Positions 14,720 to 60,309 of a stretch of DNA of 64,000 nucleotides are shown one piece after another (within the stretch, counting starts at the first letter, position 1; every line of letters starts with the position of its first letter). Position numbers and translations under genes: made by a program. Under the pieces are notes generated by a model, which saw only the letters and a program-made list of their open reading frames with translations, had not been told where the DNA came from and made no database searches. Source of the stretch: Xestospongia bergquistia (lineage: Eukaryota; Porifera; Demospongiae; Haplosclerida; Petrosiidae); NCBI GenBank assembly GCA_963965975.1, contig OZ014412.1:12538849-12602848 (forward strand), read 5' to 3'.

Positions 14720-15561
14720 TTATTTAGTTAGTCCCATAGAGTCGTTTAGACTGAGCTGTTTACTTTATTAACTTCACTCAATAGTCTAAACCTTCTAATG
14801 TCTTTAATTTAAAGACTTTAGAGTGTTAATGCAAACCAACTTACTAAACTGTTAATAACAGTTTATTTAGTTAATCCCAGAGAGTCGTTTAGACTTAGCT
14901 GTTTACTTTATTAACTTCACTCAATAGTCTAAACCTTCTAAAGTCTTTAATTTAAAGACTTTTGAGTGTAATGCAAACCAACTTACTAAACTGTTAATAA
15001 CAATTCATTTAGTTAGTGCCTTAGGGTCCATTAGACTGAGCTGTTTACTTTGCTCACTTCAATCAATAGTCTAAACCTTCTAAAGTCTTTAATTTAAAGA
15101 CTTTAGAGCGTTAAGGCAAAGCAATTTACTAAACTGTTAATAACGGTTTATTTAGTTAGTCCCATAGAGTCGTTTAGACTGAGCTTTACTTTATTAACTT
15201 CACTCAATAGTCTAAACCTTCTAATGTCTTTAATTTAAAGACTTTAGAGTGTTAATGCAAACCAACTTACTAAACTGTTAATAACAGTTTATTTAGTTAA
15301 TCCCAGAGAGTCGTTTAGACTTAGCTGTTTACTTTATTAACTTCACTCAATAGTCTAAACCTTCTAAAGTCTTTAATTTAAAGACTTTTGAGTGTAATGC
15401 AAACCAACTTACTAAACTGTTAATAACAATTCATTTAGTTAGTGCCTTAGGGTCCATTAGACTGAGCTGTTTACTTTGCTCACTTCAATCAATAGTCTAA
15501 ACCTTATGAAGTCTTTAATTTAAAGACTTTAGAGTGTTAATGCAAACAACTTTCTAAACTG
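14720..15561 (+). repeat. three-monomer duplication next to the J1 switch
   Basis: The variant CTTCTAATGTC recurs 426 bp apart (14793 and 15219). It is followed in both copies by CCCAGAGAGTCGTTTAG, ACTTTTGAGTGTAATGC and a monomer with GTGCCTTAGGGTCC and TTTGCTCACTTC. The period is three monomers minus 3 bases, part of which is the shortened GAGCTTTAC in the second copy. The second copy ends at the orientation switch. It explains most of the difference in distance from the switch between F1 markers and their mirror partners in R2. Confidence 0.88.
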
Positions 15562-15568
15562 TTAGTAA
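15552..15568. repeat. J1: F-to-R orientation switch at dyad D1
   Basis: F sequence runs to TTCTAAACTGTTA and R sequence starts with TTAGTAAATTGC. The inverted arms TTCTAA and TTAGTAA are separated by only ACTG, so the two blocks meet as a nearly spacerless palindrome. Read in reverse complement, the junction is GCAATTTACTAACAGTTTAG, the same join as at J2 and J3 but with the blocks exchanged. This indicates one ancestral breakpoint copied in both orientations. Confidence 0.88.
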
Positions 15569-17786
15569 ATTGCTTTGCCTTAACGCTCTAAAGTCTTTAA
15601 ATTAAAGACTTTAGAAGGTTTAGACTATTGAGTGAAGTGATCTAAGTAAACAGCTCAGTCTAATGGACTCTAAGGCACTAACTAAATGAATTTGTATTAA
15701 CAGTTTAGTAAGTTGGTTTGCATTACACTTTAAGTCTTTAAATTAAAGACTTTAGAAGGTTTAGACTACTGAGTGAAGTTAATAAAGTAAACAGCTAAGT
15801 CTAAACGACTCTGTGGGACTAAATAAATAAACTGTTATTAACAGTTTAGTAAGTTGGTTTGCATTAACACTCTAAAGTCTTTAAATTAAAGACTTTAGAA
15901 GTTTTAGACTAAATAGTGAAGTTAATAAAGTAAACAGCTCAGTCTAAACGACTCTATGGGACTAACTAAATAAACTGTTATTAACAATTTAGTAAGTTTG
16001 TTTGCATTAACACTGAAAAGTCTTTAAATTAAAGACTTTAGAAGGTTTAGACTATTGATTGAAGTTAACAAAGCAAACAGCTCAGTCTAAAGGACTCTAT
16101 GGGACTAACTAAATAAAATGTTATTAACAGTTTAGTAAGTTGTTTTGTATTAACATTCTAAAGTCTTTAAATTAAAGACTTTAGAAGGTTTAGACTATTG
16201 ATTGAAGTTAACAAAGTAAACAGCTCAGTCTAATGGACACTATGGGACTAACTAAATGAACTGTTATTAACAGTTTAGTAAGTTGGTTTGCAATAACACT
16301 CTACAGTCTTTAAATTAAAGACTTTAGACGATTTAGACTATTGAGTGAAGTTAATAAAGTAAACAACTCAGAGTAACTGACTCTATTGGACTAACTAAAT
16401 AAACTGTTATTAACAGTTTAGTAAGTTGGTTTGCATTAACACTCTAAAGTCTTTAAATTAAAGACTTTAGAAGGTTTAGACTATTGAGTGAAGTTAACAA
16501 AGTAAACAGCTCAGTCTAAAGGACTCTATGGGACTAACTAAATAAACTGTTATCAACAGTTTAGTAAGTTGGTTGTATTAACACTCTAAAGTCTTTAAAT
16601 TAAAGACTTTAGAAAGTTTGGACTATTGAGTGAAGTTAATAAAGTAAACAGCTCAGTGTAAAGGACTCTATGGGACTAACTAAATAAACTGTTATTAACA
16701 GTTTAGTAAGTTGGTTTACATTAACACTTTAAAGTCTTTAAATTAAAGACTTTAGAAGGTTTAGACTATTGAGTGAAGTTCATAAATTAAACAGCTCAGT
16801 CTAAAGGACTCTATGGAACTAACTAAATAAACTGTTATTAACAGTTTAGTAAGTTGGTTTGTATTAATACTCTAAAGTCTTTAAATTAAAGACTTTAGAA
16901 GGTTTAGACTCTTGATTGAAGTTAACAAAGTAAACAGCTCAGTCTAATGGACTCTAAGGGACTAACTAAATGAACTGTTATTAACAGTTTAGTAGGTTGG
17001 TTTGCATTAACACTCTAAAGTCTTTAAATTAAAGACTTTAGAAGGTTTAGACTATTGATTGAAGTTAACAAAGTAAACAGCTCAGTCTAATGGACTCTAT
17101 GGGACTAACTAAATGAACTGTTATTAACAGTTTAGTAAGTTGGTTTGCATTAACACCCTACAGTCTTTAAATTAAAGACTTTAGATGATTTAGACTATTG
17201 AGTGAAGTTAATAAAGTAAACAGCTCAGTGTAATGGACTCTATTGGACTAACTAAATGAACTGTTATTAACAGTTTAGTAAGTTGGTTTGCATTAACACT
17301 CTAAAGTCTTTAAATTAAAGACTTTAGAAGGTTTAGACTATTGACTGAAGTTAATAAAGTAAACAGCTCAGTCTAAAGGACTCTATGGGACTAACTAAAT
17401 AAACTGTTATTAAAAGTTTAGGAAGTTGGTTTGCATTAACAATCTAAAGCCTTTAAATTAAAGACTTTAGAAGGTTTAGACTCTTGACTGTAGCTAAGAA
17501 AGTAAACAGCTCAGTCTAAAGGACTCTATGGGACTAACTAAATAAACTGTTATTAACAGTTTAGTAAGTTCCTTTACATTAACACTCTAAAGTCTTTAAA
17601 TTAAAGACTTTAGAAGGTTTAGACTATAGAGTGAAGTTAATAAAGTAAACAGCTCAGTCTATAGGACTCTATTGGTCTAACTAAATAAACTGTTATTAAC
17701 AGTTTAGTAAGTTGGTTTGCATTAAGACTCTAAAGTCTTTAAATTAAAGACTTTAGAAGGTTTAGACCATTGAGTGAAGTTAATAA
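15562..17786 (-). repeat. block R1: about 15.5 monomers in R orientation
   Basis: R1 is the mirror of the right part of F2. Next to J1 it carries GAATTTGTATTA (15688-15699) and GTGATCTAAGTAAAC; F2 and F3 carry the reverse complement TAATACAAATTC at the matching distance (136 bp) before J2 and J3. Further out, AACAATCTAAAGCC (near 17445) and CTAAGAAAGTAAAC (near 17495) mirror F2 near 19455 and 19390, and GACTATAGAG and GTCTATAGGACTC mirror F2 at 19215-19275. R1 lacks about four monomers relative to F2, accounted for by a five-monomer duplication in F2. It ends at K1 within a monomer with the ACCATTGAG variant. Confidence 0.9.
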
Positions 17787-17829
17787 TAGTCCAATAGAGT
17801 CAGTTATACAGAGCTGTTTGCTTTATTAA
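17780..17829. repeat. K1: R-to-F orientation switch
   Basis: R sequence ends in AAGTTAATAA (to 17786) and F sequence begins TAGTCCAATAGAG at 17787. The inverted arms are ACCATTGAGTGAAGTTAATAA and, from 17823, TTATTAACTTCACTCAAT. They are separated by a 36-nt stretch (17787-17822) present on one side only. This asymmetric fold-back geometry differs from the spacerless J junctions. The join itself has at most 1-2 bases of microhomology. The same join, with the private variant CAGAGCT just downstream, is found at K2. Confidence 0.88.
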
Positions 17830-20800
17830 CTTCACTCAATAGTCTAAATCATCTAAAGTCTTTAATTTAAAGACTGTAGAGTGTTAATGCAAACAAACTT
17901 ACTAAACTGTTAATAACAGTTCATTTACTTAGTCCCATAGAGTCCAATAGACTGAGCTGTTTACTTTGTTAACTTCAATCAATAGTCTAAACCTTCTAAA
18001 GTCTTTAATTTAAAGACTTTAGAGTGTTAATACAAACCAACTTACTAAACTGTTAATAACAGTTTATTTAGTTAGTCCCATAGAGTACTTTAGATTGAGC
18101 TGTTTACTTTGTTAACTTCAATCAAAAGTCTAAACCTTCTAAAGTCTTTAATTTAAAGACTTTAGAGTGTTAATGCAAACAAACTTACTAAACTGTTAAT
18201 AACAGTTTATTTAGTTAGTCCCATAGAGTCGGTTAGACTTAGCTGTTTACCTTATTGACTTCACTCAATACTCTAAACCTTCTAAAGTCTTTAATTTAAA
18301 GACTTTAGAGTGTTAATGCAAAACAACTTACTAAACTGTTAATAACAGTTTATTTATTTAGTCGCAAAGAGTCGTTTAGACTTAGCTGTTTACTTTATTA
18401 ACTTCACTCAATAGTCTAAACCTTCTAAAGTCTTTAATTTAAAGACTTTAGAGTGTTAATGCAAACCAACTTACTAAACTGTTAATAACAGTTTATTTAG
18501 TTAGTCCAATAGAGTCAGTTACACTGAGCTGTTTACTTTATTAAGTTCACTCAATAGTCTAAATCATCTAAAGTCTTTAATTTAAAGACTGTAGAGTGTT
18601 AATGCAAACCAACTTACTAAACTGTTAATAACAGTTCATTTAGTTAGTCCCATAGAGTCCATTAGACTGAGCTGTTTACTTTGTTAACATCAATCAATAG
18701 TCTAAACCTTCTAAAGTCTTTAATTTAAAGACTTTAGAGTGTTAATACAAACCAACTTACTAACCTCTTAATAACAGTTTATTTATTTAGTCCCATAGAG
18801 TCCTTTAGACTGAGCTGTTTAATTTATGAACTTCACTCAATAGTCTAAACCTTCTAAAGTCTTTAATTTAAAGTCTTGACAGTGTCAACGTAAACCAACT
18901 TACTAAACTGTTAATAACAGTTTATTTAGTAAGTCCCATAGAGTCCTTTAGACTGAGCTGTTTACTTTATTAACTTCACTCAATAGTCTAAACCTTATAA
19001 AGTCTTTAACTTAAAGACTTTAGAGTGTTAATGCAAACCAACTTTCTAAACTGTTAATAACAGTTTATTTTGTTAGTCCCATAGAGTCCTTTAGACTGAG
19101 CCGTTTACTTTATTAACTTCACTCAATAGTCTAAACCTTCTAAAGACTTTAATTTAAAGACTTTAGAGTCTTAATGCTAACCAACTTACTAAACTGTTAA
19201 TAACACTTTATTTAGTTAGTCCAATAGAGTCCTATAGACTGAGCTGTTTACATTATTAACTTCACTCTATAGTCTAAACCTTCTAAAGTCTTTAATTTAA
19301 AGACTTTAGAGTGTTAATGTAAACCAACTTACTAAACTGTTAATAACATTTTATTTAGTTAGTCCCATAGAGTCCTTTAGACTGAGATGTTTACTTTCTT
19401 AACTTCAATCAAGAGTCTAAAGCTTCTAAAGTCTTTAATTTAAAGGCTTTAGATTGTTAATGCAAACCAACTTCCTAAACTGTTAATAACAGTTTATTTA
19501 GTTAGTCCCATAGAGTCCTTTAGACTGAGCTGTTTACTTTATTAACTTCACTCAATAGTCTAAACCTTCTAAAGTCTTTAATTTAAAGACTTTAGAGTGT
19601 TAATGCAAACCAACTTACTAAACTGTTAATAACAGTTCATTTAGTTAGTCCAATAGAGTCCATTACACTGAGCTGTTTACTTTATTAACTTCACTCAATA
19701 GTCTAAATCATCTAAAGTCTTTAATTTAGAGACTGTAGGGTGTTAATGCAAACCAACTTACTAAACTGTTAATAACAGTTCATTTAGTTAGTCCCATAGA
19801 GTCCATTAGACTGAGCTGTTTACTTTGTTAACTTCAATCAATAGTCTAAACCTTCTAAAGTCTTTAATTTAAAGACTTTAGAGTGTTAATGCAAACCAAC
19901 CTACTAAACTGTTAATAACAGTTCATTTAGTTAGTCCCTTAGAGTCCATTAGACTGAGCTGTTTACTTTGTTAACTTCAATCAAGAGTCTAAACCTTCTA
20001 AAGTCTTTAATTTAAAGACTTTAAAGTGTTAATGTAAACCAACTTACTAAACTGTTAATAACAGTTTATTTAGTTAGTCCCATAGAGTCCTTTACACTGA
20101 GCTGTTTACTTTATTAACTTCACTCAATAGTCCAAAATTTCTAAAGTCTTTAATTTAAAGACTTTAGAGTGTTAATACAAACCAACTTACTAAACTGTTA
20201 ATAACAGTTTATTTAGTTAGTCCCATAGAGTCCTTTAGACTCAGCTGTTTACTTTATTAACTTCACTCAATAGTCTAAACCTTCTAAAGTCTTTAATTTA
20301 AAGACTTTAAAGTGTTAATGCAAACCAACTTACTAAACTGTTAATAACAGTTTATTCAGTTAGTCCAATAGAGTCAGTTACACTGAGCTGTTTACTTTAT
20401 TAACTTCACTCAATAGTCTAAATCGTCTAAAGTCTTTAATTTAAAGACTGTAGAGTGTTAATGCAAACCAACTTACTAAACTGTTAATAACAGTTCATTT
20501 AGTTAGTCCCATAGAGTCCATTAGACTGAGCTGTTTACTTTGTTAGCTTCACTCAATAGTCTAAACCTTCTAAAGTCTTTAATTTAAAGACTTTAGAGTG
20601 TTAATGCAAAACAACTTACTAAACTGTTAATAACATTTTATTTAGTTAGTCCCATAGAGTCCTTTAGACTGAGCTGTTTACTTTGTTAACTTCAATCAAG
20701 AGTCTAAACCTTCTAAAGTCTTTAATTTAAAGACTTTAAAGTGTTAATGTAAACAAACTTACTAAACTGTTAATAACAGTTTATTTAGTTAGTCCCATAG

Positions 20801-21908
20801 AGTCCTTTACACTGAGCTGTTTACTTTATTAACTTCACTCAATAGTCCAAAATTTCTAAAGTCTTTAATTTAAAGACTTTAGAGTGTTAATACAAACCAA
20901 CTTACTAAACTGTTAATAACAGTTTATTTAGTTAGTCCCATAGAGTCCTTTAGACTGAGCTGTTTACTTTATTAACTTCACTCAATAGTCTAAACCTTCT
21001 AAAGTCTTTAATTTAAAGACTTTAGAGTGTTAATGCAAACCAACTTACTAAACTGTTAATAACAGTTTATTCAGTTAGTCCAATAGAGTCAGTTACACTG
21101 AGCTGTTTACTTTATTAACTTCACTCAATAGTCTAAATCGTCTAAAGTCTTTAATTTAAAGACTGTAGAGTGTTAATGCTAACCAACTTACTAAACTGTT
21201 AATAACAGTTCATTTAGTTAGTCCCATAGAGTCCATTAGACTGAGCTGTTCACTTTGTTAGCTTCACTCAATAGTCTAAACCTTCTAAAGTCTTTAATTT
21301 AAAGACTTTAGAGTGTTAATGCAAAACAACTTACTAAACTGTTAATAACAGTTTATTTAGTTAGTCCCATAGAGTCGTTTAGACTGAGCTGTTTACTTTG
21401 TTAACTTCAATCAAGAGTCTAAACCTTCTAAAGTCTTTAATTTAAAGACTTTAGAGTGTTAATGCAAACAAACTTACTAAACTGTTAATAACAGTTTATT
21501 TATTTAGTCCCATAGAGTCCTTTAGACTGAGCTGTTTACTTTATTAACTTCACTCAATAGTCTAAAACTTCTAAAGTCTTTAATTTAAAGACTTTAGAGT
21601 GTTAATGCAAACCAACTTACTAAACTGTTAATAACAGTTTATTTAGTTAGTCCGATAGAGTCGTTTAGACTTAGCTGTTTACTTCATTAACTTCACTCAG
21701 TAGTCTAAAGCTTCTAAAGTCTTTAATTTAAAGACTTTAGAGTGTAATGCAAACCAACTTACTAAACTGTTAATACAAATTCATTTAGTTAGTGCCTTAG
21801 AGTCCATTAGACTGAGCTGTTTACTTAGCTCACTTCAATCAATAGTCTAAACCTTCTAAAGTCATTAATTTAAAAACTTTAGAGCGTTAAGTCAAAGCAA
21901 TTTACTAA
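17787..21908 (+). repeat. block F2: about 29 monomers in F orientation
   Basis: From 19115 to 21908 this block is the reverse complement of R1. The first 1.3 kb (17787-19115) has no partner in R1 and forms the loop of the larger palindrome. F2 is also paralogous to F3: both start at the same K junction and end at the same J junction, and they share CTTGACAGTGT (near 18875 and 57836), CCTTATAAAG (near 18995 and 57957) and GAGCCGTTTAC (near 19098 and 58061). F2 is 431 bp longer than F3, about three monomers, because of gains and losses of whole monomers. Confidence 0.9.
19978..21407 (+). repeat. five-monomer tandem duplication in F2, 715-bp period
   Basis: Copies at about 19978-20692 and 20693-21407 share GTCCTTTACACTGAG, TCCAAAATTTCTAAAG (20131 and 20846), TTTATTCAGTTAGTCC and AAATCGTC, each 715 bp apart. 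The period equals that of the 9.6-11.0 kb duplication in F1, but the monomer types differ, so this is an independent event. R1 does not show the duplication, which dates it after the palindrome formed. Confidence 0.88.
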
Positions 21909-21919
21909 CAGTTTAGTAA
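21902..21919. repeat. J2: F-to-R orientation switch at dyad D1
   Basis: TTACTAA (21902-21908), a 4-nt centre CAGT and TTAGTAA (21913-21919) form the join. The symmetry continues outwards imperfectly into both blocks (CAAAGCAATT on the left, AAGTTGGTTTG on the right). The left flank GTCAAAGCAATTTACTAA and right flank are almost identical to J3, 38,390 bp away, and to the reverse complement of J1. The first R monomer ends in AACAAAATAAACCG (near 22031), a marker also found after J3. Confidence 0.9.
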
Positions 21920-24827
21920 GTTGGTTTGCATTAACGCTCTAAAGTCTTTAAATTAAAGACTTTATAAGGTTTAGACTATTGAGTGAAGTTAATAAAGTAA
22001 ACAGCTCAGTCTAAAGGACTCTATGGGACTAACAAAATAAACCGTTATTAACAGTTTAGTAAATTGCTTTGCCTTAACGCTATAAAGTCTTTAAATTAAA
22101 GGCTTTAGAAGGTTTAGACTATTGATTGAAGTGAGCAAAGTAAACAGCTCAGTCTAATGGACCCTAAGGCACTAACTAAATGAATTGTTATTAACAGTTT
22201 AGTAAGTTGGTTTGCATTACACTCAAAAGTCTTTAAATTAAAGACTTTAGAAGGTTTAGACTATTGAGTGAAGTTAATAAAGTAAACAGCTAAGTGTAAA
22301 CGACTCTGTGGGATTAACTGAATAAACTGTTATTAACAGTTTAGTAAGTTGGTTTGCATTAACACTCTAAAGTCTTTAAATTAAAGACATTAGTAGGTTT
22401 AGACTATTGAGTGAAGTTAATAAAGTAAACAGCTCAGTCTAAACGACTCTATGGGACTAACTAAATAAAATGTTATTAAAAGTTTAGCAAGTTTGTTTGC
22501 ATTAACACTCTAAAGTCTTTAAATTAAAGACTTTAGAAAGTTCAGACTATTGATTGAAGTTAACAAAGTAAACAGCTCAGTGTAAAGGACTCTATGGGAG
22601 TAACTAAATAAACTGTTATTAACAGTTTAGTAAGTTGGTTTGTATTAACACTCTAAAGTATTTAAATTAAAACACTTTAGAAGGTTTAGACTATTGATTG
22701 AAGTTAACAAAGTAAACAGCTCAGTCTAATGGACTCTATGGGACTGACTAAATGAACTGTTATTAACAGTTTAGTAAGTTGGTTTGCATTAACACTCTAC
22801 AGTCTTTAAATTAAAGACTTTAGATGATTTAGACTATTGAGTGAAGTTAATAAAGATAACAGCTCAGTGTAACTGACTCTATTGGACTAACTAAATGAAC
22901 TGTTATTAACAGTTTAGTAAGTTGGTTTACATTAACACTCTAAAGTCTTTAAATTAAAGACTTTAGAAGGTTTAGACTATTGAGTGAAGTTCATAAATTA
23001 AACAGCTCAGTCTAATGGACTCTATGGGACTAACTAAATAAACTGTTATTAACAGTTTAGTGAGTTGGTTTGTATTAACACTCTAAAGTCTTTAAATTAA
23101 AGACTTTAGAAGGTTTAGACTCTCGTTTGTAGTTAACAAAGTAAACAGCTCAGTCTAATGGACTCTAAGGGACTAGCTCAATGAACTGTTATTAACAGTT
23201 TAGTAGGTTGGTTTGCATTAACACTCTAAAGTCTTTAAATTAAAGACTTTCGAATGTTTAGCCTATTGATTGAAGTTAACAAAGTAAACTGCTCAGTCTA
23301 AAGGACTCTATGGGACTAACTAAATAAACTGTTATTAACAGTTTAGTAAGTTGGTTTGTATTAACACTCTAAAGTCTTTAAATTAAAGACTTTAGAAGGT
23401 TTAGACTATTGAGTGAAGTAAATAAAGTAAACAGCTCAGTCTAAAGGACTCTATGGGACTAACTAAATATACTGTTATTAACAGTTTAGTAAGTTGGTTT
23501 ACGTTAACACTCTAAAGTCTTTAAATTAAAGACTTTAGAAGGTTTAGACTATTGAGTGAAGTTCTTAAAAAAACAGCTCAGTCTAAAGGACTCTATGGGA
23601 CTAACTAAATAAACTGTTATTAACACTTCAGTAGGTTGGTTTGCATTAACACTCTAAAGTCTTTAAATTAAAGACTTTAGAAGGTTTAGACTATTGATTG
23701 AAGTTAACAAAGTAAACTGCTCAGTCTAATGGACTCTATGGGACTAACTAAATGAACTGTTATTAACAGTTTGGTAAGTTGGTTTGCATTAAAACTCTAA
23801 AGTCTTTAAATTAAAGACTTTAGATGATTTAGACTATTGAGTGAAGTTAATAAAGTAAACAGCTCAGTGTAATGGACTCTATTGGACTAACTAAATGAAC
23901 TGTTATTAACAGTTTAGTAAGTTTGTTTGCATTAACACTCTAAAGTCTTTCAATTAAAGACTTTAGAAGGTTTAGACTATTGAGTGAAGTTAATAAAATA
24001 AACAGCTGAGTCTAAAGGACTCTATGGGACTAACTAAGTAAACTGTTTTTAACAGTTTAGTAAGTTTGTTTGCATTAACACTCTAAAGTCTTTAAATTAA
24101 AGACTTTAGAAGGTTTAGACTATTGAGTGAAGTTATTAAAGTAAACAGCTCAGTCTAAAGGACTCTATGGGACTAAGTATATAAACTGTTATTAACAGTT
24201 TAGTAAGTTGGTTTGCCTTAACGCTCTAAAGTCTTTAAATTAAAGACTTTAGAAGGTTTAGACTATTGATTGAAGTTAACAAAGTAGACAGCTCAGTCTA
24301 ATGGACTCTATGGGACTAACTAAATGAACTGTTATTAACAGTTTAGTAAGTTTGTTTACATTAAGACTCTAAAGTCGTTAAGTTAAAGACTTTGGAAGGT
24401 TTAGACTATTGAGTGAATTTAATAAAGTAAACAGCTCAGTCTAAAGGACTCTATGGGACTAACTAAATAAACTGTTATTAACAGTTTAGTAAGTTGGTTT
24501 GCCTTAACACTCTAAAGTCTTTAAATTAAAGACTTTAGAAGGTTTAGACTATTGATTGAAGTTAATAAAGTAATCAGCTCAGTCTAAAGGACTCTATGGG
24601 ACTAACTAAATAAACTGTTATTAACAGTTTAGTAAGTTAGTTTGCATTAACACTCTAAAGTCTTTAAATTAAAGACTTTAGATGATTTAGACTATTGAGT
24701 GAAGTTAATTAAGTAAACAGCTCAGTTTAATGGACTCTATTGGACTAACTAAATGAACTGTTATTAACAGTTTAGTAAGTTTTTTTGCATTAACACTCTA
24801 AAGTCTTTCAATTAAAGACTTTAGAAG

Positions 24828-24863
24828 GTTTAGACTATTGAGTGAGGTTTAGACTATTGAGTG
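24828..24863 (-). repeat. fused monomer from a 124-bp deletion (copy 1)
   Basis: AGGTTTAGACTATTGAGTG appears twice in a row here, giving a 162-bp unit. Compared with sister sequence at 26265-26430, the simplest explanation is loss of 124 bp between equivalent places in adjacent monomers, joining GAGTGA to AGGTTTAGAC with 1-2 bases of microhomology. The identical structure at about 27134-27169 shows that the deletion happened before the 2,306-bp HOR was duplicated. Confidence 0.8.
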
Positions 24864-27133
24864 AAGTTATTAAAGTAAACAGCTCAGTCTAAAGGACTCT
24901 ATGGGACTAAGTAAATAAACTGTTATTAACAGTTTAGTAAGTTGGTTTGCCTTAACGCTCTAAAGTCTTTAAATTAAAGACTTTAGAAGGTTTAGACTAT
25001 TGATTGAAGTTAACAAAGTAAACAGCTCAGTCTAATGGACTCTATGGGACTAGCTAAATGAACTGTTAGTAACAGTTTAGTAAGTTGGTTTCCATTAAGA
25101 CTCTAAAGTCGTTAAGTTAAAGACTTTAGAAGGTTTAGACTATTGAGTGAATTTAATAAAGTAAACAGCTCAGTCTAAAGGACTCTATGGGACTAAATAA
25201 ATAAACTGTTATTAACAGTTTAGTAAGTTGGTTTGCCTTAACTCTCTAAAGTCTTTAAATTAAAGACTTTAGAAGGTTTAGACTATTGATTGAAGTTAAT
25301 AAAGTAATCAGCTCAGTCTAAAGGACTCTATGGGACTAACTAAATAAACTGTTATTAACAGTTTAGTAAGTTAGTTTGCATTAACACTCTAAAGTCTTTA
25401 AATTAAAGACTTTAGAAGGTTTAGACTATTGAGTGAAGTTAATAAAGTAATCAGCTCAGTCTAAAGGACTCTATTGGACTAACTAAATAAACTGTTATTA
25501 ACAGTTTAGTAAGTTGGTTTGCCTTAACACTCTAAAGTCTTTAATTAATGACTTTAGAAGGTATAGACTATTGAGTGATGTTAATAAAGTAAACAGCTCA
25601 GTCTAAAGGACTCTATGGGACTAACTAAATAAACTGTTATTAACAGTTTAGTAAGTTGGTTTGCCTTAACACTCTAAAGTCTTTAAATTAAAGACTTTAG
25701 AAGGTTTAGACTATTGATTGAAGTTAACAAAGTAGACAGCTCAGTCTAATGGACTCTATGGGACTTACTAAATGAACTGTTATTAACAGTTTAGTAAGTT
25801 TGTTTGCATTAAGACTCTAAAGTCGTTAAGTTAAAGACTTTAGAAGGTTTAGACTATTGAGTGAATTTAGTAAAGTAAACAGCTCAGTCTAAAGGACTCT
25901 ATGGGACTAACTAAATAAACTGTTATTAACAGTTTAGTAAGTTGGTTTGCCTTAACACTCTAAAGTCTTTAAATTAAAGACTTTAGAAGGTTTAGACTAT
26001 TGATTGAAGTTAATAAAGTAATCAGCTCAGTCTAAAGGACTCTATGGGACTAACTAAATAAACTGTTATTAACAGTTTAGTAAGTTAGTTTGCATTAACA
26101 CTCTAAAGTCTTTAAATTAAAGACTTTAGATGATTTAGACTATTGAGTGAAGTTAATAAAGTAAACAGCTCAGTGTAATGGACTCTATTGGACTAACTAA
26201 ATGAACTGTTATTAACAGTTTAGTAAGTTTGTTTGCATTAACACTCTAAAGTCTTTCAATTAAAGACTTTAGAAGGTTTAGACTATTGAGTGAAGTTAAT
26301 AAAATAAACAGCTCAGTCTAAAGGACTCTATGGGACTAACTAAGGAAACTGTTTTTAACAGTTTAGTAAGTTTGTTTGCATTAACACTCTAAAGTCTTTA
26401 AATTAAAGACTTTAGAAGGTTTAGACTATTGAGTGAAGTTATTAAAGTAAACAGCTCAGTCTAAAGGACTCTATGGGACTAAGTAAATAAACTGTTATTA
26501 ACAGTTTAGTAAGTTGGTTTGCCTTAACGCTCTAAAGTCTTTAAATTAAAGACTTTAGAAGGTTTAGACTATTCATTGAAGTTAACAAAGTAGACAGCTC
26601 AGTCTAATGGACTCTATGGGACTAACTAAATGAACTGTTATTAACAGTTTAGTAAGTTGGTTTGCATTAAGACTCTAAAGTCGTTAAGTTAAAGACTTTG
26701 GAAGGTTTAGACTATTGAGTGAATTTAATAAAGTAAACAGCTCAGTCTAAAGGACTCTATGGGACTAACTAAATAAACTGTTATTAACAGTTTAGTAAGT
26801 TGGTTTGCCTTAACACTCTAAAGTCTTTAAATTAAAGACTTTAGAAGGTTTAGACTATTGATTGAAGTTAATAAAGTAATCAGCTCAGTCTAAAGGACTC
26901 TATGGGACTAACTAAATAAACTGTTATTAACAGTTTAGTAAGTTAGTTTGCATTAACACTCTAAAGTCTTTAAATTAAAGACTTTAGATGATTTAGACTA
27001 CTGAGTGAAGTTAATTAAGTAAACAGCTCAGTTTAATGGACTCTATTGGACTAACTAAATGAACTGTTATTAACAGTTTAGTAAGTTTTTTTGCATTAAC
27101 ACTCTAAAGTCTTTCAATTAAAGACTTTAGAAG

Positions 27134-49400: not shown

Positions 49401-52400
49401 CTTAACACTCTAAAGTCTTTAAATTAAAGACTTTAGAAGGTTTAGACTATTGTTTGAAGTTAACAAAGTCAACAGCTTAGTCTAATGGAGTCTAAGGCAC
49501 TAACTAAATGAATTGTTATTAACAGTTTAGTAAGTTGGTTTGTATTAACACTCTAAAGTCTTTAAATTAAAGACTTTAGAAGGTTTAGACTATTGAGTGA
49601 AGTTAATAAAGTAAACAGCTCAGTCTAAAGGTCTCTATGGCACAAACTAAATAAACTGTTATTAACAGTTTAGGAAGTTGGTTTGCATTAACACTCTAAA
49701 GTTTTTAAATTAAAGACTTTAGAAGGTTTAGACTATTGAGTGAAGTTCATAAATTAAACAGCTCCGTCTAAAGGACTCTATGGGACTAACTAAATAAACT
49801 GTTATTAACAGTTTAGTAAGTTGGTTAGCATTAAGCCACTAAAGTCTTTAAGTTGAAGACTTTAGAAAGTTTAGACTATTGATTGAAGTTAACAAAGTAA
49901 AAAGCTCAGTCTAGTGAACTCTATGGGACTAACTAAATGAACTGTTATTAACAGTTTAGTAAGGTGCTTTGCCTTAACACTCTAAAGTCTTTAAATTAAA
50001 GACTTTAGAAGGTTTAGACTATTGAGTGAAGTTAATAAAGTAAACAGCTCAGTCTAAAGGACTCTATGGGACTAACTAAATAAACTGTTATTAACAGTTT
50101 AGTAAGTTGGTTTGCATTAAGACTCTAAAGTCTTTAAATTAAAGACTTTAGAAGGTTTAGACTATTGAGTGAAGTTAATAAAGTAAACAGCTCAGTCTAA
50201 AGGACTCTATGGGACTAAATAAATAAACTGTTGTTAACAGTTTAGTAAGTTGGTTTGCTTTAACACTCTAAAGTCTTTAAATTAAAGACTTTAGAATGTT
50301 GAGACTATTGAGTGAAGTTAATAAAGTAAACAGCTCAGTCTTAAAGACTCTATGGGACTAACTAAATAAACTGTTATTAATAGTTTAGTAAGTTGGTTTG
50401 CTTTAACACTCTAAAGTCTTTAAATTAAAGACTTTAGAATGTTGAGACTATTGATTGAAGTTAACAAAGTCAACAGCTTAGTCTAATGGACTCTAAGGCA
50501 CTAACTAAATGAATTGTTATTAACAGTTTAGTAAGTTTGTTTGGATTACACTCTAAAGTCTTGAAATGAAAGACTTTAGAAGGTTTAAACTGTTGAGTGA
50601 AGTTAATAAAGTAAACAGCACAGTCTAAACGACTCTATGGGACTAACTAAATAAACTGCTATTAACAGTTCAGTAAGATGGTTTGCCTTAACACTCTAAA
50701 GTCTTTAAATTAAAGACTTTAGAAGGTTTAGACTATAGATTGAAGTTCACAAAGTAAAAAGCACAGTCTAATGGACTCTATGGGACTAACTAAATGAACT
50801 GTTATTAACAGTTTAGTAAGTTGGTTTGCATTAACACTCTAAAGTCTTTAAATTAAAGACTTCAGAAGTTTTAGACTATTGAGTGAAGTTAATAAAGTAA
50901 ACAGCTCAGTCTAAAGGACTCTATGGGACTAACTAAATAAACTGTTATTAACAGTTTAGTAAGTTGGTTTGTATTAACACTCTAAAGTGTTTAAATTAAA
51001 GACTTTAGAAGGTTTAGACTATTGACTGAAGTTAATAAAGTAAACAGCTCAATCTAAAGGACTCTATGAGACTAAATAAATAAACTGTTATTAACAGTTT
51101 AGTAAGTTGGTTTGCATTACACTCTAAAGTCTTTAAATTAAAGACTTTAGAAGGTTTAGACTATTGAGTGAAGTTAATAAAGTAAACAGCTAAGTCTAAA
51201 GGACTCTATGGGACTAACTAAATAAACTGTTATTAACGGTTTTGTAAGTTGGTTTACATTAACACTCTAAACTCTTTAAATTAAAGACTTTATAAGGTTT
51301 AGACTATTGAGTGAAGTTAATGACGTAATCAGCTCAGTCTAAAGGAATCTGTGGGACTAACTAAATAAACTGTTATTAACAGTTTAGTAAGTTGGTTTGC
51401 CTTAACACTCTAAAGTCTTTAAATTAAAGACTTTAGAAGGTTTAGACTATTGATTGAAGTTAATAAAGTAAACAGCTCAGTCTAATGGACTCTAAGGGAC
51501 TAACTAAATGAACTGTTATTAACAGTTTAATAGTTTGGTTTGCATTAACATTCTAAAGTCTTTATATTAAAGACTTTAGAAGGTTTGGACTATTGATTGA
51601 AGTTAACAAAGTAAACAGCTCAGTCTAATGGACTCTATGGGACTAGCTAAATGAACTGTTATTAACAGTTTAGTAAGTGGGTTTGCATTAACTCTTTACA
51701 GTCTTTAAATTAAAGACTTTAGATGCTTTAGACTATTGAGTGAAGTTAATAAATAAACAGCTCAGTCTAATGGACTCTATTGGACTAACTAAATGAACAG
51801 TTATTAACAGTTCAGAAAGTTGGTTTGCGTTAACACTCTAAAGTCTTTAAATTAAAGACTTTAGAATGTTTAGACTATTGAGTGAAGTCAAAAAAGTAAA
51901 CAGCTCAGTCTAAAGGACTCTATGGGACTAACTAAATAAACTGTTATTAACAGTTTAGTAAGTTGGTTAGCATTAAGCCACTAAAGTCTTTAAATTAAAG
52001 ACTTTAGAAGGTTTAGACCATTGAGTGAAGTTAATAAATAAACAGCTCAGTCTAATGGACTCTATTGGACTAACTAAATGAACAGTTATTAACAGTTTAG
52101 AAAGTTGGTTTGTATTAACACTCTAAAGTGTTTAAATTAAAGACTTTAGAAGGTTTAGACTATTGAGTGAAGTTAATAAAGTAAACAGCTCAATCTAAAG
52201 GACTTTATGAGACTAACTAAATAAACTGTTATTAACAGTTTAGTAAGTTGGTTTGCATTAACATTCTAAAGTCTTTAAATTAAAGACTTTAGAAGGTTTA
52301 GACTATTGAGTGAAATTAATAAAGTAAACAGCTCAGTCTAAAGGACTCTATGGGAGTAACTAAATAAACTGTTATTAACAGTTTAGTAAGGTGGTTTGCC

Positions 52401-55400
52401 TTAACACTCTAAAGTCTTTAAATTAAAGACTTTAGAAGGTTTAGACTATAGATTGAAGTTAACAAAGTAAAAAGCTCAGTCTAATGGACTCTATGGGACT
52501 AACTAAATGAACTGTTATTAACAGTTTAGTAAGTTGGTTTGCATTAACACTCTAAAGTCTTTAAATTAAAGACTTTAGAAGTTTTAGACTATTGAGTGAA
52601 GTTAATAAAGTAAACAGCTCAGTCTAAAGGACTCTATGGGACTAACTAAATAAACTGTTATTAACAGTTTAGTAAGTTGGTTTGTATTAACACTCTAAAG
52701 TGTTTAAATTAAAGACTTTAGAAGTTTTAGACTATTGACTGAAGTTAATAAAGTAAACAGCTCAATCTAAAGGACTCTATGAGACTAAATAAATAAACTG
52801 TTATTAACAGTTTAGTAAGTTGGTTTGCATTAACATTCTAAAGTCTTTAAATTAAAGACTTTAGAAGGTTTAGACTATTGAGTGAAGTTAATAAATTAAA
52901 CAGCTCAGTCTAAAGGACTCTATGGGAGTAACTAAATAAACTGTTATTAACAGTTTAGTAAGGTGGTTTGCCTTAACACTCTAAAGTCTTTAAATTAAAG
53001 ACTTTAGAAGGTTTAGACTATTGATTGAAGTTAACAAAGTCAACAGCTTAGTCTAATGGACTCTAAGGCACTAACTAAATGAATTGTTATTAACAGTTTA
53101 GTAAGTTTGTTTGCATTACACTCTAAAGTCTTTAAATTAAAGACTTTAGAAGGTTTAGACTATTGAGTGATGTTAATAAAGTAAACAGCTAAGTCTAAAG
53201 GACTCTATGGGACTAACTAAATAAACTGTTATTAACGGTTTTGTAAGTTGGTTTGCATTAACACTCTAAACTCTTTAAATTAAAGACTTTATAAGGTTTA
53301 GACTATTGAGTGAAGTTAATGACGTAATCAGCTCAGTCTAAAGGAATCTGTGGGACTAACTAAATAAACTGTTATTAACAGTTTAGTAAGTTGGTTTGCC
53401 TTAACACTCTAAAGTCTTTAAATTAAAGACTTTAGAAGGTTTAGACTATTGATTGAAGTTAATAAAGTAAACAGCTCAGTCTAATGGACTCTAAGGGACT
53501 AACTAAATGAACTGTTATTAACCGTTTAGTAGTTTGGTTTGCATTAACATTCTAAAGTCTTTAAATTAAAGACTTTAGAAGGTTTAGACTATTGATTGAA
53601 GTTAACAAAGTAAACAGCTTAGTCTAATGGACTCTATGGGACTAACTAAATGAACTGTTATTAACAGTTTAGTAAGTGGGTTTGCATTAACTCTTTACAG
53701 TCTTTAAATTAAAGACTTTAGATGCTTTAGACTATTGAGTGAAGTTAATAAATAAACAGCTAAGTCTAATGGACTCTATTGGACTAACTAAATGAACAGT
53801 TATTAACAGTTTAGAAAGTTGGTTTGCGTTAACACTCTAAAGTCTTTAAATTAAAGACTTTAGAATGTTTAGACTATTAAGTGAAGTCAAAAAAGTAAAC
53901 AGCTCAGTCTAAAGGACTCTATGGGACTAACTAAATAAACTGTTATTAACAGTTTAGTAAGTTGGTTAGCATTAAGCCACTAAAGTCTTTAAATTAAAGA
54001 CTTTAGAAGGTTTAGACCATTGAGTGAAGTTAATAATGTAAACAGCTCAGTCTAAAGGACTCTATGGGAGTAACAAAATAAACTGTTATTAACAGTTTTG
54101 TAAGTTGCTTTGCCTTAACACTCTAAAGTCTTTAAACTAAAGACTTCAGTACGTTTACACTATTGATTGAAGTTAACAAAGTAAACAGCTCAGTCTAAAC
54201 GACTCTATGGGACTAACTAAATAAACTGCTATTAACAGTTTAGTAAGTTGGTTTGCATTAACACTCTAAAGTCTTTAAATTAATGACTTTAGAAGGTTTA
54301 GACTATTAAGTGAAGTTCATAGAGTAAACAGCTCAGTCTAATGGACTCTATGGGACTAAATAAATAAACTGTTATTAACAGATTAGTAAGTTTCTTTGCC
54401 TTAACACTCTAAAGTCTTTAAATTAAAGACTTTAGAAGGTTTAGACTATTGAGTGAAGTTAATAAAGTAAACAGCTCAGTCTAAAGGACTCTATGGGACT
54501 AAGTAAATAAAGTGTTATTAACAGTTTAGTAAGTTGGTTTGCCTTAACGCTCTAAAGTCTTTAAATTAAAGACTTTAGAAGGTTTAGACTATTGATTGAA
54601 GTGAACAAAGTAAACAGCTCAGTCTAATGGGCTCTAAGGCTCTATCTAAAGGAATTTTTATAAACAGTTTAGTAAGTTGGTTTGCATTACACTCTAAAGT
54701 CTTTAAATTAAAGACTTTAGAAGGTTTAGATTATTGAGTGAAGTTAATAAGGTAAACAGCTCAGTCTAAACGACTCTATGGGAGTAACTAAATAAACTGT
54801 TATTAACAGTTTAGTAAGTTGGTTTCCATTAACACTCTAAACTCTTTAAATTAAAGACTTTATAAGGTTTAGACTATTGAGTGAAGTTAAGAAAGTAATC
54901 AGCTCAGTCTAAAGGAATCTGTGGGACTAACTAAATAAACTGTTACTAACAGTTTAGTAAGTTGGTTTGCCATAACACTCTAAAGTCTTTAAATTAAAGA
55001 CTTTAGAAGGTTTAGACTATTGATTGAAGTTAATAAAGTAAACAGCTCAGTCTCATGGACTCTAAGGGACTAACTAAATGAACTGTTATTAACAGTTTAG
55101 TAGGTTGGTTTGCATTAACACTCTAAAGTCTTTAAATTAAAGACTTTAGAAGGTTTAGACTATTGATTGAAGTTAACAAAGTAAACAGCTCAGTCTAATG
55201 GACTCTATGGGACTAACTAAATGAACTGTTATTAACAGTTTAGTAAGTGGGTTTGCATTAACTCTCTACAGTCTTTAAATTAAAGACTTTAGGAGGTTTA
55301 GACTATTGTGTGAAGTTAATAAATAAACAGCTCAGTCTAATGGACTCTATTGGACTAACTAAATGAACAGTTATTAACAGTTTAGAAAGTTGGTTTGCGT

Positions 55401-56165
55401 TAACACTCTAAAGTCTTTAAATTAAAGACTTTAGAAGGTTTAGACTATTGAGTGAAGTCAAAAAAGTAAACAGCTCAGTCTAAAGGACTCTATGGGACTA
55501 ACTAAATAAACTGTTATTAAAAGTTTAGTAAGTTGGTTAGCATTAAGCCACTAAAGTCTTTAAATTAAAGACTTTAGAAGGTTTAGACCATTGAGTGAAG
55601 TTAATAAAGTAAACAGCTTAGTCTAAAGGACTCTATCGGTCTAACAAAATAAACTGTTATTAACAGTTTTGTAAGTTGCTTTGCCTTAACACTCTAAAGT
55701 CTTTAAACTAAAGACTTTTGAAGGTTTACACTATTGATTGAAGTTAACAATGTAAACAGCTCAGTCTAAACGACTCTATGGGACTAACTAAATAAACTGC
55801 TATTAACAGTTTAGTAAGTTGGTTTGCATTAACACTCTAAAGTCTTTAAATTAACGACTTTTGAAGGTTTAGACTATTGAGTGAAGTTCATAAAGTAAAC
55901 AGCTCAGTCTAAAGGACTCTATGGGACTAACTAAATAAACTGTTATTAACAGTTTAGTAAGTTGGTTTGCCTTAATAGTCTAAAGTCTTTAAATTAAACA
56001 CTTTAGATGGTTTAGACTATTGAGTGAAGTTAATAAAGTAAACAGCTCAGTCTATAGGACTCTATGATACTAACTAAATAAACTGTTATTAACAGTTTAG
56101 TAAGTTGCTTTGCCTTAACACTCTAAAGTCTTTAAATTAAAGACTTTAGAAGGTTTAGACTATTG
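46237..56165 (-). repeat. 10-kb segmental duplication, copy B
   Basis: Second copy of 27950-38305, three monomers shorter. It ends about 440 bp before K2; after 56165 the sequence (GATTGAAGTCAATAAAG) departs from copy A (GAGTGAAGTTAATAAAG). Missing monomers lie near 49800, where the GTATTAAC monomer present in copy A at about 31500-31640 is absent, and near 51100, where two monomers present at 32.97-33.26 kb are absent. Confidence 0.87.
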
Positions 56166-56600
56166 ATTGAAGTCAATAAAGTAAACAGCTCAGTCTAATG
56201 GACTCTATGGGACTAAATAAAAGAACTGTTATTAACAGTTTAGTAAGTGGGTTTGCATTAACTCTCTACAGTCTTTAAATTAAAGACTTTAGACGCTTTA
56301 GACTATTGAGTGAAGTTAATAAATAAACAGCTCAGTCTAATGGACTCTATTGGACTAACTAAATGAACAGTTATTAAAAGTTTAGAAAGTTGGTTTGCGT
56401 TAACACTCTAAAGTCTTTAAATTAAAGACTTTAGAAGGTTTAGACTATTGAGTGAAGTCAAAAAAGTAAACAGCTCAGTCTAAAGGACTCTATGGGACTA
56501 ACTAAATAAACTGTTATTAACAGTTCAGTAAGTTGGTTAGCATTAAGCCACTAAAGTCTTTAAATTAAAGACTTTAGAAAGTTTAGACCATTGAGTGAAG

Positions 56601-56650
56601 TTAATAATAGTCCAATAGAGTCAGTTACACAGAGCTCTTTGCTTTATTAA
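56601..56650. repeat. K2: R-to-F orientation switch, copy of K1
   Basis: R sequence ends in TTAATAA at 56607 and F begins TAGTCCAATAGAGTC at 56608. It is the same breakpoint as K1 (offset 38,821 bp), with identical flanks from ACCATTGAG through GAGTCAGTTA and the shared private variants CAGAGCT and TTGCTTTATTAAC. Two independent inversions would be unlikely to give the same non-palindromic join, so K1 and K2 descend from one event. Confidence 0.88.
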
Positions 56651-59600
56651 CTTCACTCAATAGTCTAAACCTTCTAAAGTCTTTAATTTAAAGACTGTAG
56701 AGTGTTAATGCAAACCAACTTACTAAACTGTTAATAACAGTTCATTTAGTTAGTCCCATAGAGTCCATTAGACTGAGCTGTTTACTTTGTTAACTTCAAT
56801 CAATAGTCTAAACCTTCTAAAGTCTTTAATTTAAAGACTTTAGAGTGTTAATACAAACCAACTTACTAAACTGTTAATAACAGTTTATTTAGTTAGTCCC
56901 ATAGAGTCCTTTAGACTGAGCTGTTTACTTTGTTAACTTCAATCAATAGTCTAAACCTTCTAAAGTCTTTAATTTAAAGACTTTAGAGTGTTAATTCAAA
57001 CAAACTTACGAAACTGTTAATAACAGTTTATTTAGTTAGTCCCATAGAGTCGTTTAGACTGAGCTGTTTACTTTATTAACTTCACTCAATAGTCTAAACC
57101 TTCTAAAGTCTTTAATTTAAAGACTTTAGAGTGTTAATGCAAAACCACTTACTAAACTGTTAATAACAGTTTATTTACTTAGTCCCAAAGAGTCGTTTAG
57201 ACTTAGCTGTTTACTTTATTAACTCCACTCAATAGTCTAAGCCTTCTAAAGTCTTTAATTTAAAGACTTTAGAGTGTTAATGCAAACCAACTTCCTAAAC
57301 TGTTAATTACAGTTTATTTAGTTAGTCCCATAGAGTCCTTTAGACTGAGCTGTTTACTTTATTAACTTCACTCAATAGTCTAAACCTTCTAAAGTCTTTA
57401 ATTTAAAGACTTTAGAGTGTTAATGCAAACCAACTTACTAAACTGTTAATAACAGTTCATTTAGTTAGTCCAATAGAGTCCATTACACTGAGCTGTTTAC
57501 TTTATTAACTTCACTCAATAGTCTAAATCATCTAAAGTCTTTAATTTAAAGACTGTAGAGTGTTAATGCAAACCAACTTACTAAACTGTTAGTAACAGTT
57601 CATTTAGATAGTCCAATAGAGTCCAGTAGACTGAGCTGTTTACTTTGTTAACGTCAAACATTAGTCTAAACCTTCTAAAGTCTTTAATTTAAAGACTTTA
57701 GAGTGTTAATACAAACAAACTTACTAACCTGTTAATAACAGTTTATTTATTTAGTCCCATAGAGTCCTTTAGACTGAGCTGTTTAATTTATGAACTTCAC
57801 TCAATAGTCTGACCTTCTAAAGTCTTTAATTTAAAGACTTGACAGTGTTAATGTAAACCAACTTACTAAACTGTTAATAACAGTTTATTTAGTTAGTCCC
57901 ATAGAGTCCTTTAGACTGAGCTGTTTACTTTATTAACTTCACTATATAGTCTAAACCTTATAAAGTCTTTAATTTAAAGACTTTAGAGTGTTAATACAAA
58001 CCAACTTTCTAAACTGTTAATAACACTTTATTTTGTTAGTCCCATAGAGTCCTTTAGACTGAGCCGTTTACTTTATTAACTTCACTCAATAGTCTAAACC
58101 TTCTAAAGTCTTTAATTTAAAGACTTTAGAGTCTTAATGCAAACAAACTTACTAAACTATTAATAACACTTTATTTAGTTAGTCCAATAGAGTCCTTTAG
58201 ACTGAGCTGTTTACTTTATTAACTTCACTCTATAGTCTAAACCTTCTAAAGTCTTTAATTTAAAGACTTTAGAGTGTTAATGGAAACCAACTTACTAAAC
58301 TGTTAATAACAGTTTATTTAGTTAGTCCCATAGAGTCCTTTAGACTGAGCTGTTTACTTTATTAACTTCAATCAAGAGTCTAAACCTTCTAAAGTCTTTA
58401 ATTTAAAGGCTTTTAATTGTTAATACAAACCAACTTCCTAATCTGTTAATAACAGTTTATTTAGTTAGTCCCATAGAGTCCTTTAGACTGAGCTGTTTAC
58501 TTTATTAACTTCACTCAATAGTCTAAACCTTCTAAAGTCTTTAATTTAAAGACTTTAGAGTGTTAATGCAAACCAACTTACTAAACTGTTAATAACAGTT
58601 CATTTAGTTAGTCCAATAGAGTCCATTACACTGAGCTGTTTACTTTATTAACTTCACTCAATAGTCTAAATCATCTAAAGTCTTTAATTTAAAGACTGTA
58701 GAGTGTTAATGCAAACCATCTTACTAAACTGTTAATAACAGTTCATTTAGTTAGTCCCATAGAGTCCATTAGACTGAGCTGTTCACTTTGTTAACTTCAA
58801 TCAATAGTCTAAACCTTCTAAAGTCTTTAATTTAAAGACTTTAGAGTGTTAATGCAAACCAACCTACTAAACTGTTAATAACAGTTCATTTAGTTAGTCC
58901 CTTAGAGTCCATTAGACTGAGCTGTTTACTTTCTTAACTTCAATCAATAGTCTAAACCTTCTAAAGTCTTTAATTTAAAGACTTTAGAGTATTAATACAA
59001 ACCAACTTACTAAACTGTTAATAACAGTTTATTTAGTTAGTCCCATAGAGTCCTTTAGACTGAGCTGTTTAATTTATGAACTTCACTCAGTAGTCTAAAC
59101 CTTCTAAAGTCTTTAATTTAAAGACTTTAGAGTGTTAATGTAAACCAACTTACTAAACTGTTAATAACAGTTTATTTATTTAGTCCCATACAGTCGTTTA
59201 GACTGAGCTGTTTACTTTATTAACTTCACTCAATAGTCCAAACTTTCTAAAGTCTTTAATTTAAAGACTTTAGAGTGTTAATACAAACCAACTTACTAAA
59301 CTGTTGATAACAGTTTATTTAGTTAGTCCCATAGAGTCCTTTAGACTGAGCTGTTTACTTTATTAACTTCACTCAATGGTCTAAACCTTCTAAAGTCTTT
59401 AATTTAAAGACTTTAGAGTGTTAATGCAAACCAACTTACTAAACTGTTAGTAACAGTTCTTTTAGTTAGTCCAATAGAGTCAGTTACACTGAGCTGTTTA
59501 CTTTATTAACTTCACTCAATAGTCTAAATCGTCTAAAGTCTTTAATTTAAAGACTGTAGAGTGTTATTGCAAACCAACTTACTAAACTGTTAATAACAGT

Positions 59601-60298
59601 TCATTTAGTTAGTCCCATAGAGTCCATTAGACTGAGCTGTTTACTTTGTTAACTTCACTCAATAGTCTAAACCTTCTAAAGTCTTTAATTTAAAGACTTT
59701 AGAGTGTTAATACAAAACAACTTACTAAACTGTTAATAACATTTTATTTAGTTAGTCCCATAGAGTCCTTTAGACTGAGCTGTTTACTTTCTTAACTTCA
59801 ATCAATAGTCTAAACCTTCTAAAGTCTTTAATTTAAAGACTTTAGAGTGTTAATGCAAACAAACTTACTAAACTGTTAATAACAGCTTATTTAGTTAGTC
59901 CCATAGAGTCGTTTAGACTGAGCTGTTTACTTTATTAACTTCACTCAATAGTCTAAACCTTCTAAAGTCTTTAATTTCAAGACTTTAGAGTGTTAATGCA
60001 AACCAACTTACTAAACTGTTAATAACAGTTTATTTAGTTAGTCCCATAGAGTCATTTATACTTAGCTGTTTACTTTATTAACTTTACTCAGTAGTCTAAA
60101 CCTTCTAAAGTCTTTAATTTAAAGACTTTATGTGTAATGCAAACCAACTTACTAAACTGTTAATACAAATTCATTTAGTTAGTGCCTTAGAGTCCATTAG
60201 ACTGAGCTGTTTACTTTGCTCACTTCAATCAATAGTCTAAACCTTCTAAAGTCTTTAAATTAAAGACTTTAGAGCGTTAAGGCAAAGCAATTTACTAA
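56608..60298 (+). repeat. block F3: about 26 monomers in F orientation
   Basis: F3 is paralogous to F2: same start at K, same end at J, same private variants in the same order. It lacks the 715-bp duplication of F2 and has about one extra monomer in its first part (offset to F2 rises from 38,821 to 38,963 at GAGCCGTTTAC). The last monomer before J3 has a D2 with an R-type centre base (GTCTTTAAATTAAAGAC, 60251-60267), unlike its F neighbours. Confidence 0.9.
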
Positions 60299-60309
60299 CA
60301 GTTTAGTAA
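60292..60309. repeat. J3: F-to-R orientation switch, copy of J2
   Basis: TTACTAA, the 4-nt centre CAGT and TTAGTAA repeat the J2 arrangement 38,390 bp downstream. The left flank reads GGCAAAGCAATTTACTAA and the first R monomer again ends in AACAAAATAAACCG (near 60421). Compared with J2, the R flank differs at a few bases (TTTGTTTACATTAACAC), so the copies have diverged since duplication. Confidence 0.9.

Follow-up and report, generated by a model that had tools for sequence, protein, structure and literature searches.

Most orientation switches in a sponge satellite array are copies of two joins, one of which most likely began as a fold-back inverted duplication

How many events lie behind the changes of orientation in a satellite array, and of what kind were they? 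The question is raised by a stretch of 64,000 nucleotides from the sponge Xestospongia bergquistia (assembly GCA_963965975.1, contig OZ014412.1, here C2; C2:12538849-12602848), hereafter the window, which is solid 143-bp satellite from end to end (1..64000; Tandem Repeats Finder). The original prediction, made from the letters of the window, held that three switches of orientation (J1, J2 and J3) are one breakpoint, present once in inverted form. We find that most switches in this array trace to two joins, a and b, and that the most likely origin of join a is a single fold-back inverted duplication, its spacer ~153 bp long, and not a cut-and-flip inversion.

The window was extended with neighbouring loci (20 loci, giving 264 kb; two further sets, giving 314 kb and then 334 kb), the result being one contiguous stretch, C2:12408849-12742848; the genome assembly searched comprises 146.46 Mb in 21 contigs. 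Every base of the stretch was assigned a monomer position (phase) by a phase-tracking alignment in which a change of strand was allowed. A first phase map, built with no non-satellite state, gave 29 strand changes, 14 of which lay within or at the edges of a transposon (12467786-12470289) and are noise; the final map, which includes such a state, gave 20 switches plus the two transposon edges. Either map may miss switches that bound very short pieces. By the final map the stretch is 99.25% satellite, the transposon being the lone exception, and satellite continues at both ends: the array on C2 is continuous from at least 12408849 to 12742848.

According to the phases that meet at each switch, the 20 switches fall into seven breakpoint classes: a (phases 15 and 5) with seven switches; b (94 and 130), which switches in the opposite sense to a, with five (b1 to b5); c (69 and 29), e (132 and 49) and f (34 and 47) with two each; and d (98 and 74) and g (45 and 136) with one each. 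J1, J2 and J3 all belong to class a, and the window also holds two b joins, at 17786 and 56607. The prediction that the changes of orientation are not a series of independent inversions is borne out for the 12 of 20 switches in classes a and b; the remaining eight, in classes c to g, show further events.

Some of these other switches have features of their own. The e and f joins bound a 159-bp inverted piece present in two copies 1818 bp apart (C2:12430854-12432831): another switch pair multiplied by local duplication. Three switches (b, d and c) lie within 394 bp at C2:12533304-12533698, a short inverted piece included, and class c occurs a second time in the 334 kb at 12518451. Adjoining the switch-rich zone at 12.50-12.62 Mb is a tract of at least 121 kb with no switch (C2:12621634-12742848).

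If J1, J2 and J3 are copies of one breakpoint, then they should share not only the join but also private variants beside it. At J3 the join reads exactly GCAAAGCAATTTACTAA followed by CAGTTTAGTAAG (from window position 60282); J2 differs by one base at the start (TCAAAGC..., from 21892), and J1 is the reverse complement with one mismatch (...TTTAGAAAG, from 15550). The join letters first proposed are thus exact for J3 and one base off for the other two. The 12-mer TAATACAAATTC starts 138 bp before CAGTTTAG at both J2 (21771, 21909) and J3 (60161, 60299), and its reverse complement lies at 15688, the matching distance after J1: the private flank is common to the three as predicted, at 138 bp where 136 bp had been given, a figure that depends on where the join is cut. 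The same 12-mer occurs five times in 334 kb, always at this spot.

A search of the whole genome, allowing up to three mismatches, found join a in seven places (five forward, two inverted), all on C2, and a reversed-pattern control in none. We name the copies a1, a2, a3i, J1, J2, J3 and a7, with a3i and J1 inverted. The 12-mer flanks a3i, J1, J2, J3 and a7; at its site a1 has the common state of the array and a2 a different variant. Over 320 bp on each side all seven joins align through common variants, J1 doing so without one right-side monomer. Such shared flanks are informative because, in this array, monomers do not resemble each other more when they lie close together: mean monomer identity is 0.917-0.922 at each of 24 lags tried between 1 and 30 monomers. 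No higher-order repeat period is present at these lags, and a higher-order repeat array is rejected, identity showing no rise at any fixed multiple of the monomer among them. The true order of monomers gives 267 matching segments above threshold (the best of 36 monomers at 99.3%) vs. none for one random order.

Shared private flanks bear directly on the possibility that a near-palindromic dyad is a hotspot of breakage and repeatedly makes the same join. The monomer has two dyads, centred on phase 51 (14 pairs) and phase 4 (11 pairs), and these exceed shuffled expectation: among 2000 shuffles none reaches 14 pairs and 15 reach 10. Join a sits at the phase-4 dyad and join f at the edge of the phase-51 dyad, as a hotspot would have it; classes b, c, d, e and g, however, are not centred on a dyad, the seven a joins of the genome (at up to three mismatches) all lie in one array, and a join remade at a hotspot would carry neither the private variants on both its sides nor the many-monomer cassette arms described below. 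Since its copies share both flanks and arms, a hotspot origin is rejected for join a; we regard it as extremely improbable.

A further prediction concerns the monomers beside the joins: those of copied joins should group by distance from the join, and not by neighbouring block. A tree was built from 70 rows, comprising the first three monomers to the left (L1-L3) and to the right (R1-R3) of the seven a joins plus 28 local controls; J1 has lost one monomer, so that its R1 has the role of R2. The closest flanking monomers cluster by distance, and neither unrelated flanks nor many different joins at the same dyad – the outcomes that would have spoken against a single breakpoint – are seen for class a in this array. 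One clade (support 100/97) unites the L1 and R2-role monomers of every a join with one control, a nearby R2-like monomer of a1. R1 monomers of six joins form a separate clade (99/93) with no left partner; R3-role monomers of six joins (99/95) and L2 monomers of five joins (96/77) form two more, and these two are sisters (82/76, weak). Grouping by distance is absent for L3 and for some L2 and R3 of a1 and a3i. When compared with all monomers of 264 kb, L1 is closest to the L1 of a different a join in 6/7 cases and to a local monomer in none; for R1 the figures are 5/7 and 2/7. Strict matches of this kind drop outward (L2 4/7, L3 3/7, R2 2/7), and random monomers find their nearest neighbour within 20 monomers in 182 of 600 cases. 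Taken together, tree and nearest-neighbour tests show distance grouping that is clear for L1, R1 and R2 and partial for L2 and R3.

This grouping also shows a mirror relation between left and right of join a, displaced by one monomer: the first monomer on the left pairs with the second on the right, the second on the left (more weakly) with the third on the right, and the first on the right is without a partner. A haplotype of six rare variants makes the same point. Of the 1906 monomers in 264 kb it marks 16, none of which lies further than about 2.2 kb from an a join; 12 hold a mirror position (L1 or R2), the other four being right-side monomers of a1, J1, J3 and a7, and the exact haplotype stands on both sides of six of the seven joins. 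Exact copies of its 32-base core number 12 in 264 kb, and each is no more than 0.8 kb away from an a join. A fold-back is expected to leave a mirrored inverted copy and an unduplicated spacer, and tree and haplotype place both at join a.

Sharing of rare variants between arms, at a shift of one monomer, gives z scores of 6.2 (a1), 6.7 (a2, four pairs only), 2.7 (a3i), 4.0 (J1), 6.3 (J2), 3.2 (J3) and 3.6 (a7); in 3000 random arm pairs 0.33% reach 6, 1.2% reach 3.2 and 2.0% reach 2.7. A first pair sharing at least 15 is found at six of the seven joins, compared to 68 of 50000 random arm pairs, and a first pair of at least 15 plus a second of at least 5 at three (a2, J2 and a7), compared to 23 of 50000. 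Two pairs of at least 15 within seven monomers are seen at a1 and J2 (18 of 20000 random arm pairs). Further out L6 has a strong partner in five joins: R7 (a1, J2), R9 (J1) or R10 (J3, a7).

The anatomy of the join is of the same kind. The left side ends ...TTTACTAA and the right side begins TAACAG..., the two having TAA in common exactly and TTAYTAA with one mismatch, as read from the join sequences; TAA would be the short inverted microhomology looked for at the edge of a fold-back spacer. With R2 as partner, phase arithmetic makes the left arm the sequence that begins about 154 bp to the right of the join, which gives a spacer of about 153 bp.

Could an ordinary cut-and-flip inversion have made join a once, duplication and inversion then copying it with no fold-back at all? 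Any single event suffices for shared joins and flanks, blocks of alternating orientation are what inversions would leave, and past the first monomers the mirror signal is weak in several copies. Yet a plain inversion predicts unrelated sides at the breakpoint, and at join a L1 groups with R2 and L2 with R3; the exact haplotype, confined in 264 kb to the vicinity of a joins, lies on both sides of 6/7. The phases, moreover, do not close: by arithmetic an inversion would require losses of about 63 bp at one end and about 17 bp at the other, modulo whole monomers. We consider this origin unlikely.

Several observations weigh against a fold-back. A handful of monomer pairs, chiefly L1-R2, L2-R3 and L6-R7, supply the mirror signal; with L1 omitted, z falls to 3.3 (a1), 1.5 (a2), -0.5 (a3i), 4.3 (J1), 3.3 (J2), 0.1 (J3) and 0.5 (a7). 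Other shifts can match or beat a shift of one: the highest values of J1 are at eight (8.9) and three (6.0), a shift of four gives J3 and a7 an equal or higher value (3.6), and b1 and b2, taken as non-mirrored, reach 3.2, a value like that of J3, at shifts two and eight. When arms were aligned to each other monomer by monomer without an anchor, at two divergence settings (177 and 400 random arm pairs), J1 alone (27.7) stood just above the random 95th percentile (27.0) at the first setting and no a join did so at the second; most values fall in the random range because the array is full of segmental duplications. The seven joins being copies, the mirror test is in effect one observation, and the tree bootstrap had not settled, the 82/76 that unites L2 with R3 being weak. 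R2-like monomers also occur further out (R6 in J3 and a7, R15 in a1), and the original spacer may therefore have exceeded its present length. Looser relatives of the haplotype are common: its core has 76 matches at ≤2 mismatches in 264 kb, and at 12754858, some 133 kb away from the closest a join, there is a monomer that resembles R2 of J2 at 97%. Later gene conversion could, finally, have raised the likeness of the two sides.

Join a then most likely spread together with join b, as an inverted cassette of 3-4 kb. Join b is found in five places genome-wide at up to three mismatches (three forward, two inverted), again all on C2. Three complete b-to-a cassettes share one orientation and end at J2, J3 and a7 (4119, 3688 and 3975 bp), and one, from a3i to b2 (3121 bp), is turned the other way; the lengths differ by about whole monomers. 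The J2 and J3 cassettes align over 25 monomers at 96.7% and those of J3 and a7 over 26 at 97.7%, whole arms in both cases. Alignment of the a3i cassette extends for 12 monomers against J3 and for the first monomer alone against J2 and a7; at its b end 18 monomers align with b3. J3 and a7, 22.5 kb apart, agree over 30 monomers to the right of the join (98.8%) and 13 to the left (99.0%).

These flanks also bear on the assembly. Fold-back chimeras are a known sequencing artefact, and joins of this form could in principle come from chimeric reads or from falsely duplicated pieces of contig. Flanks that differ by about 2-8% in most pairs of copies, and by about 1% in J3/a7, are hardly what chimeras or false duplication would give, and we think an artefact very improbable.

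At join b, compared with the consensus, no base is shared at the join, and z for shared rare variants shows no consistent shift that would speak for a mirror structure: b4 and b5 stay below 2, the 3.2 of b1 and b2 falls at unrelated shifts, and the 7.2 of b3 is attributed to its left arm, which belongs to the inverted copy J1. These values are compatible with the unrelated sides of a plain inversion. The inverted copy J1 has an arm of 2225 bp that continues, without changing orientation, as far as the b join of the next cassette and that matches the J3 cassette in inverted orientation (15 monomers at 97.1%); the segment from b1 to a2 (2222 bp) is the same arrangement turned round. Both would be products of an in-register exchange between arms that face opposite ways. 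Copy a1 is set apart, its inverted block running 68 kb to join g without a b join and its L1 branching beside a clade of the remaining L1 monomers (98/89 for that clade of six); of all copies it may stand closest to the founding event.

Starting from these shared joins and flanks, the mirror likeness near the join and the duplicated cassettes, we infer a replication or repair step and an order of events. In one event in the satellite array of this chromosome, DNA synthesis would have made a U-turn, switching to the opposite strand about 150 bp away at the microhomology TAA beside the monomer dyad, and would then have copied the array back outwards to leave an interrupted palindrome with one unduplicated monomer as spacer. 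A piece of this palindrome, an inverted arm of about 4 kb closed by the second and non-mirrored join b, would then have formed an inverted cassette in a forward array. Segmental duplication would have multiplied the cassette (J3 and a7, 22.5 kb apart and about 99% alike nearby, being an example), and occasional in-register exchange between opposite arms would have yielded the inverted copies J1 and a3i without new breakpoints. To this account – a single fold-back copying event that made join a, its copies then spread by cassette duplication and exchange – we assign a probability of roughly 0.75. The prediction of one event copied by duplication and inversion is upheld for class a, with the amendment that the event looks like a fold-back inverted duplication. 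A further extension, which we consider improbable, is that the a/b cassette is a palindromic unit promoting its own spread: opposite-facing arms and dyads would favour fork stalling or exchange, so that the cassette multiplies and turns round. Were this true, a single self-amplifying structure, and not inversion, would drive the orientation mosaicism of this satellite.

Fold-back and array duplication are both known processes; what is noteworthy is that most switches in one array trace to two joins. Human fold-back inverted duplications, studied in patients, are described, in the sections of the report available, as having an unduplicated spacer and 2-8 bp of inverted microhomology at 13 junctions (PMC3907307). 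Join a resembles these in its unduplicated spacer and its edge microhomology (TAA, or TTAYTAA with one mismatch); its spacer is about 153 bp, vs. 766-70466 bp in the human cases, and unlike them it sits among satellite repeats and now exists in several copies, with no terminal deletion seen.

Strand switches in satellite arrays tend to be taken as inversions. So it is, in the parts available of an account of mouse centromeric and pericentric satellites, where directional switches inside arrays, found in 1.7% (minor) and 1.9% (major), are taken to suggest inversion events (PMC10880262); those parts contain no comparison of breakpoints, whereas here breakpoints are shared and are mostly copies of two joins. 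In human alpha satellite orientation is typically kept, with few inversions, according to the portion consulted of PMC9859433, in contrast to 20 switches in 334 kb here; an excerpt of PMC10150506 places a large polymorphic inversion on chromosome 1 adjoining the alpha-satellite array and predicts its breakpoints to fall within or close to HSAT repeats. As far as these two sources were available, the human arrays share with this one occasional transposons and differ from it in higher-order structure, no such period being found here at the lags tried up to 30 monomers. Among the matches listed, no literature was found on shared switch breakpoints in satellites, nor was any found on the 143-bp satellite, in searches whose coverage of subscription journals was thin. 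If the pattern is general, counting switches overcounts inversions and switch counts are not rates; switch joins would instead be heritable markers that record how an array came about and can be read like a family tree. The array also offers a concrete instance in which to ask whether fold-back replication errors, not inversions, start the orientation changes of centromere-like arrays.

Features of the window. Positions are those of the window, with C2 coordinates in brackets.
Feature	Position	Strand	Basis
143-bp satellite array	1..64000	.	Tandem Repeats Finder and 334-kb phase map
J1, join a, inverted copy	15548..15576 (C2:12554396-12554424)	-	1 mismatch to 29-base join pattern
Arm of inverted copy J1, 2225 bp	15562..17786	+	phase map; inverted match to J3 cassette
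Join b, left end of cassette ending at J2	17772..17801 (C2:12556620-12556649)	+	exact match, phases 94 and 130
Inverted b-to-a cassette ending at J2, 4119 bp	17787..21905	-	phase map; arm aligned to J3 copy
L1 monomer of J2, carries haplotype	21758..21900	-	six-variant haplotype list
J2, join a, forward copy	21894..21922 (C2:12560742-12560770)	+	0 mismatches to 29-base pattern
R2 monomer of J2, mirror partner of L1, same haplotype	22064..22206 (end = start plus 142)	+	haplotype list, tree
Join b, left end of cassette ending at J3	56593..56622 (C2:12595441-12595470)	+	exact match
Inverted b-to-a cassette ending at J3, 3688 bp	56608..60295	-	phase map; aligned to a7 copy outside window
L1 monomer of J3, carries haplotype	60148..60290	-	six-variant haplotype list
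J3, join a, forward copy	60284..60312 (C2:12599132-12599160)	+	0 mismatches to 29-base pattern
R2 monomer of J3, mirror partner of L1, same haplotype	60454..60596 (end = start plus 142)	+	haplotype list, tree

The satellite is not restricted to this contig. A 32-base monomer core has 3076 exact occurrences in the genome; those among the 100 matches listed all fall on a second contig, C1, and 598 fall in 314 kb of C2. A tract of 7 kb of the C1 satellite is of a single orientation throughout. Array size and presence on both contigs are compatible with a centromeric satellite, no more.

The transposon within the satellite (C2:12467786-12470289, outside the window) is a piggyBac-like element of 2504 bp, with TTAA on both flanks and terminal inverted repeats CCCTTTGAGCGCG. 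Its transposase (DDE_Tnp_1_7, zf-Tnp_2) is spread over two frames, and the copy looks broken, unless an intron accounts for the two frames. In two places in the window (24686-25011 and 26992-27317) the period is 162 bp in place of 143, a 19-bp piece, AGGTTTAGACTATTGAGTG, being tandemly doubled in both. The two places are 2306 bp apart and sit in a duplication of 29 monomers with the same 2306-bp offset: they look like copies of one event.

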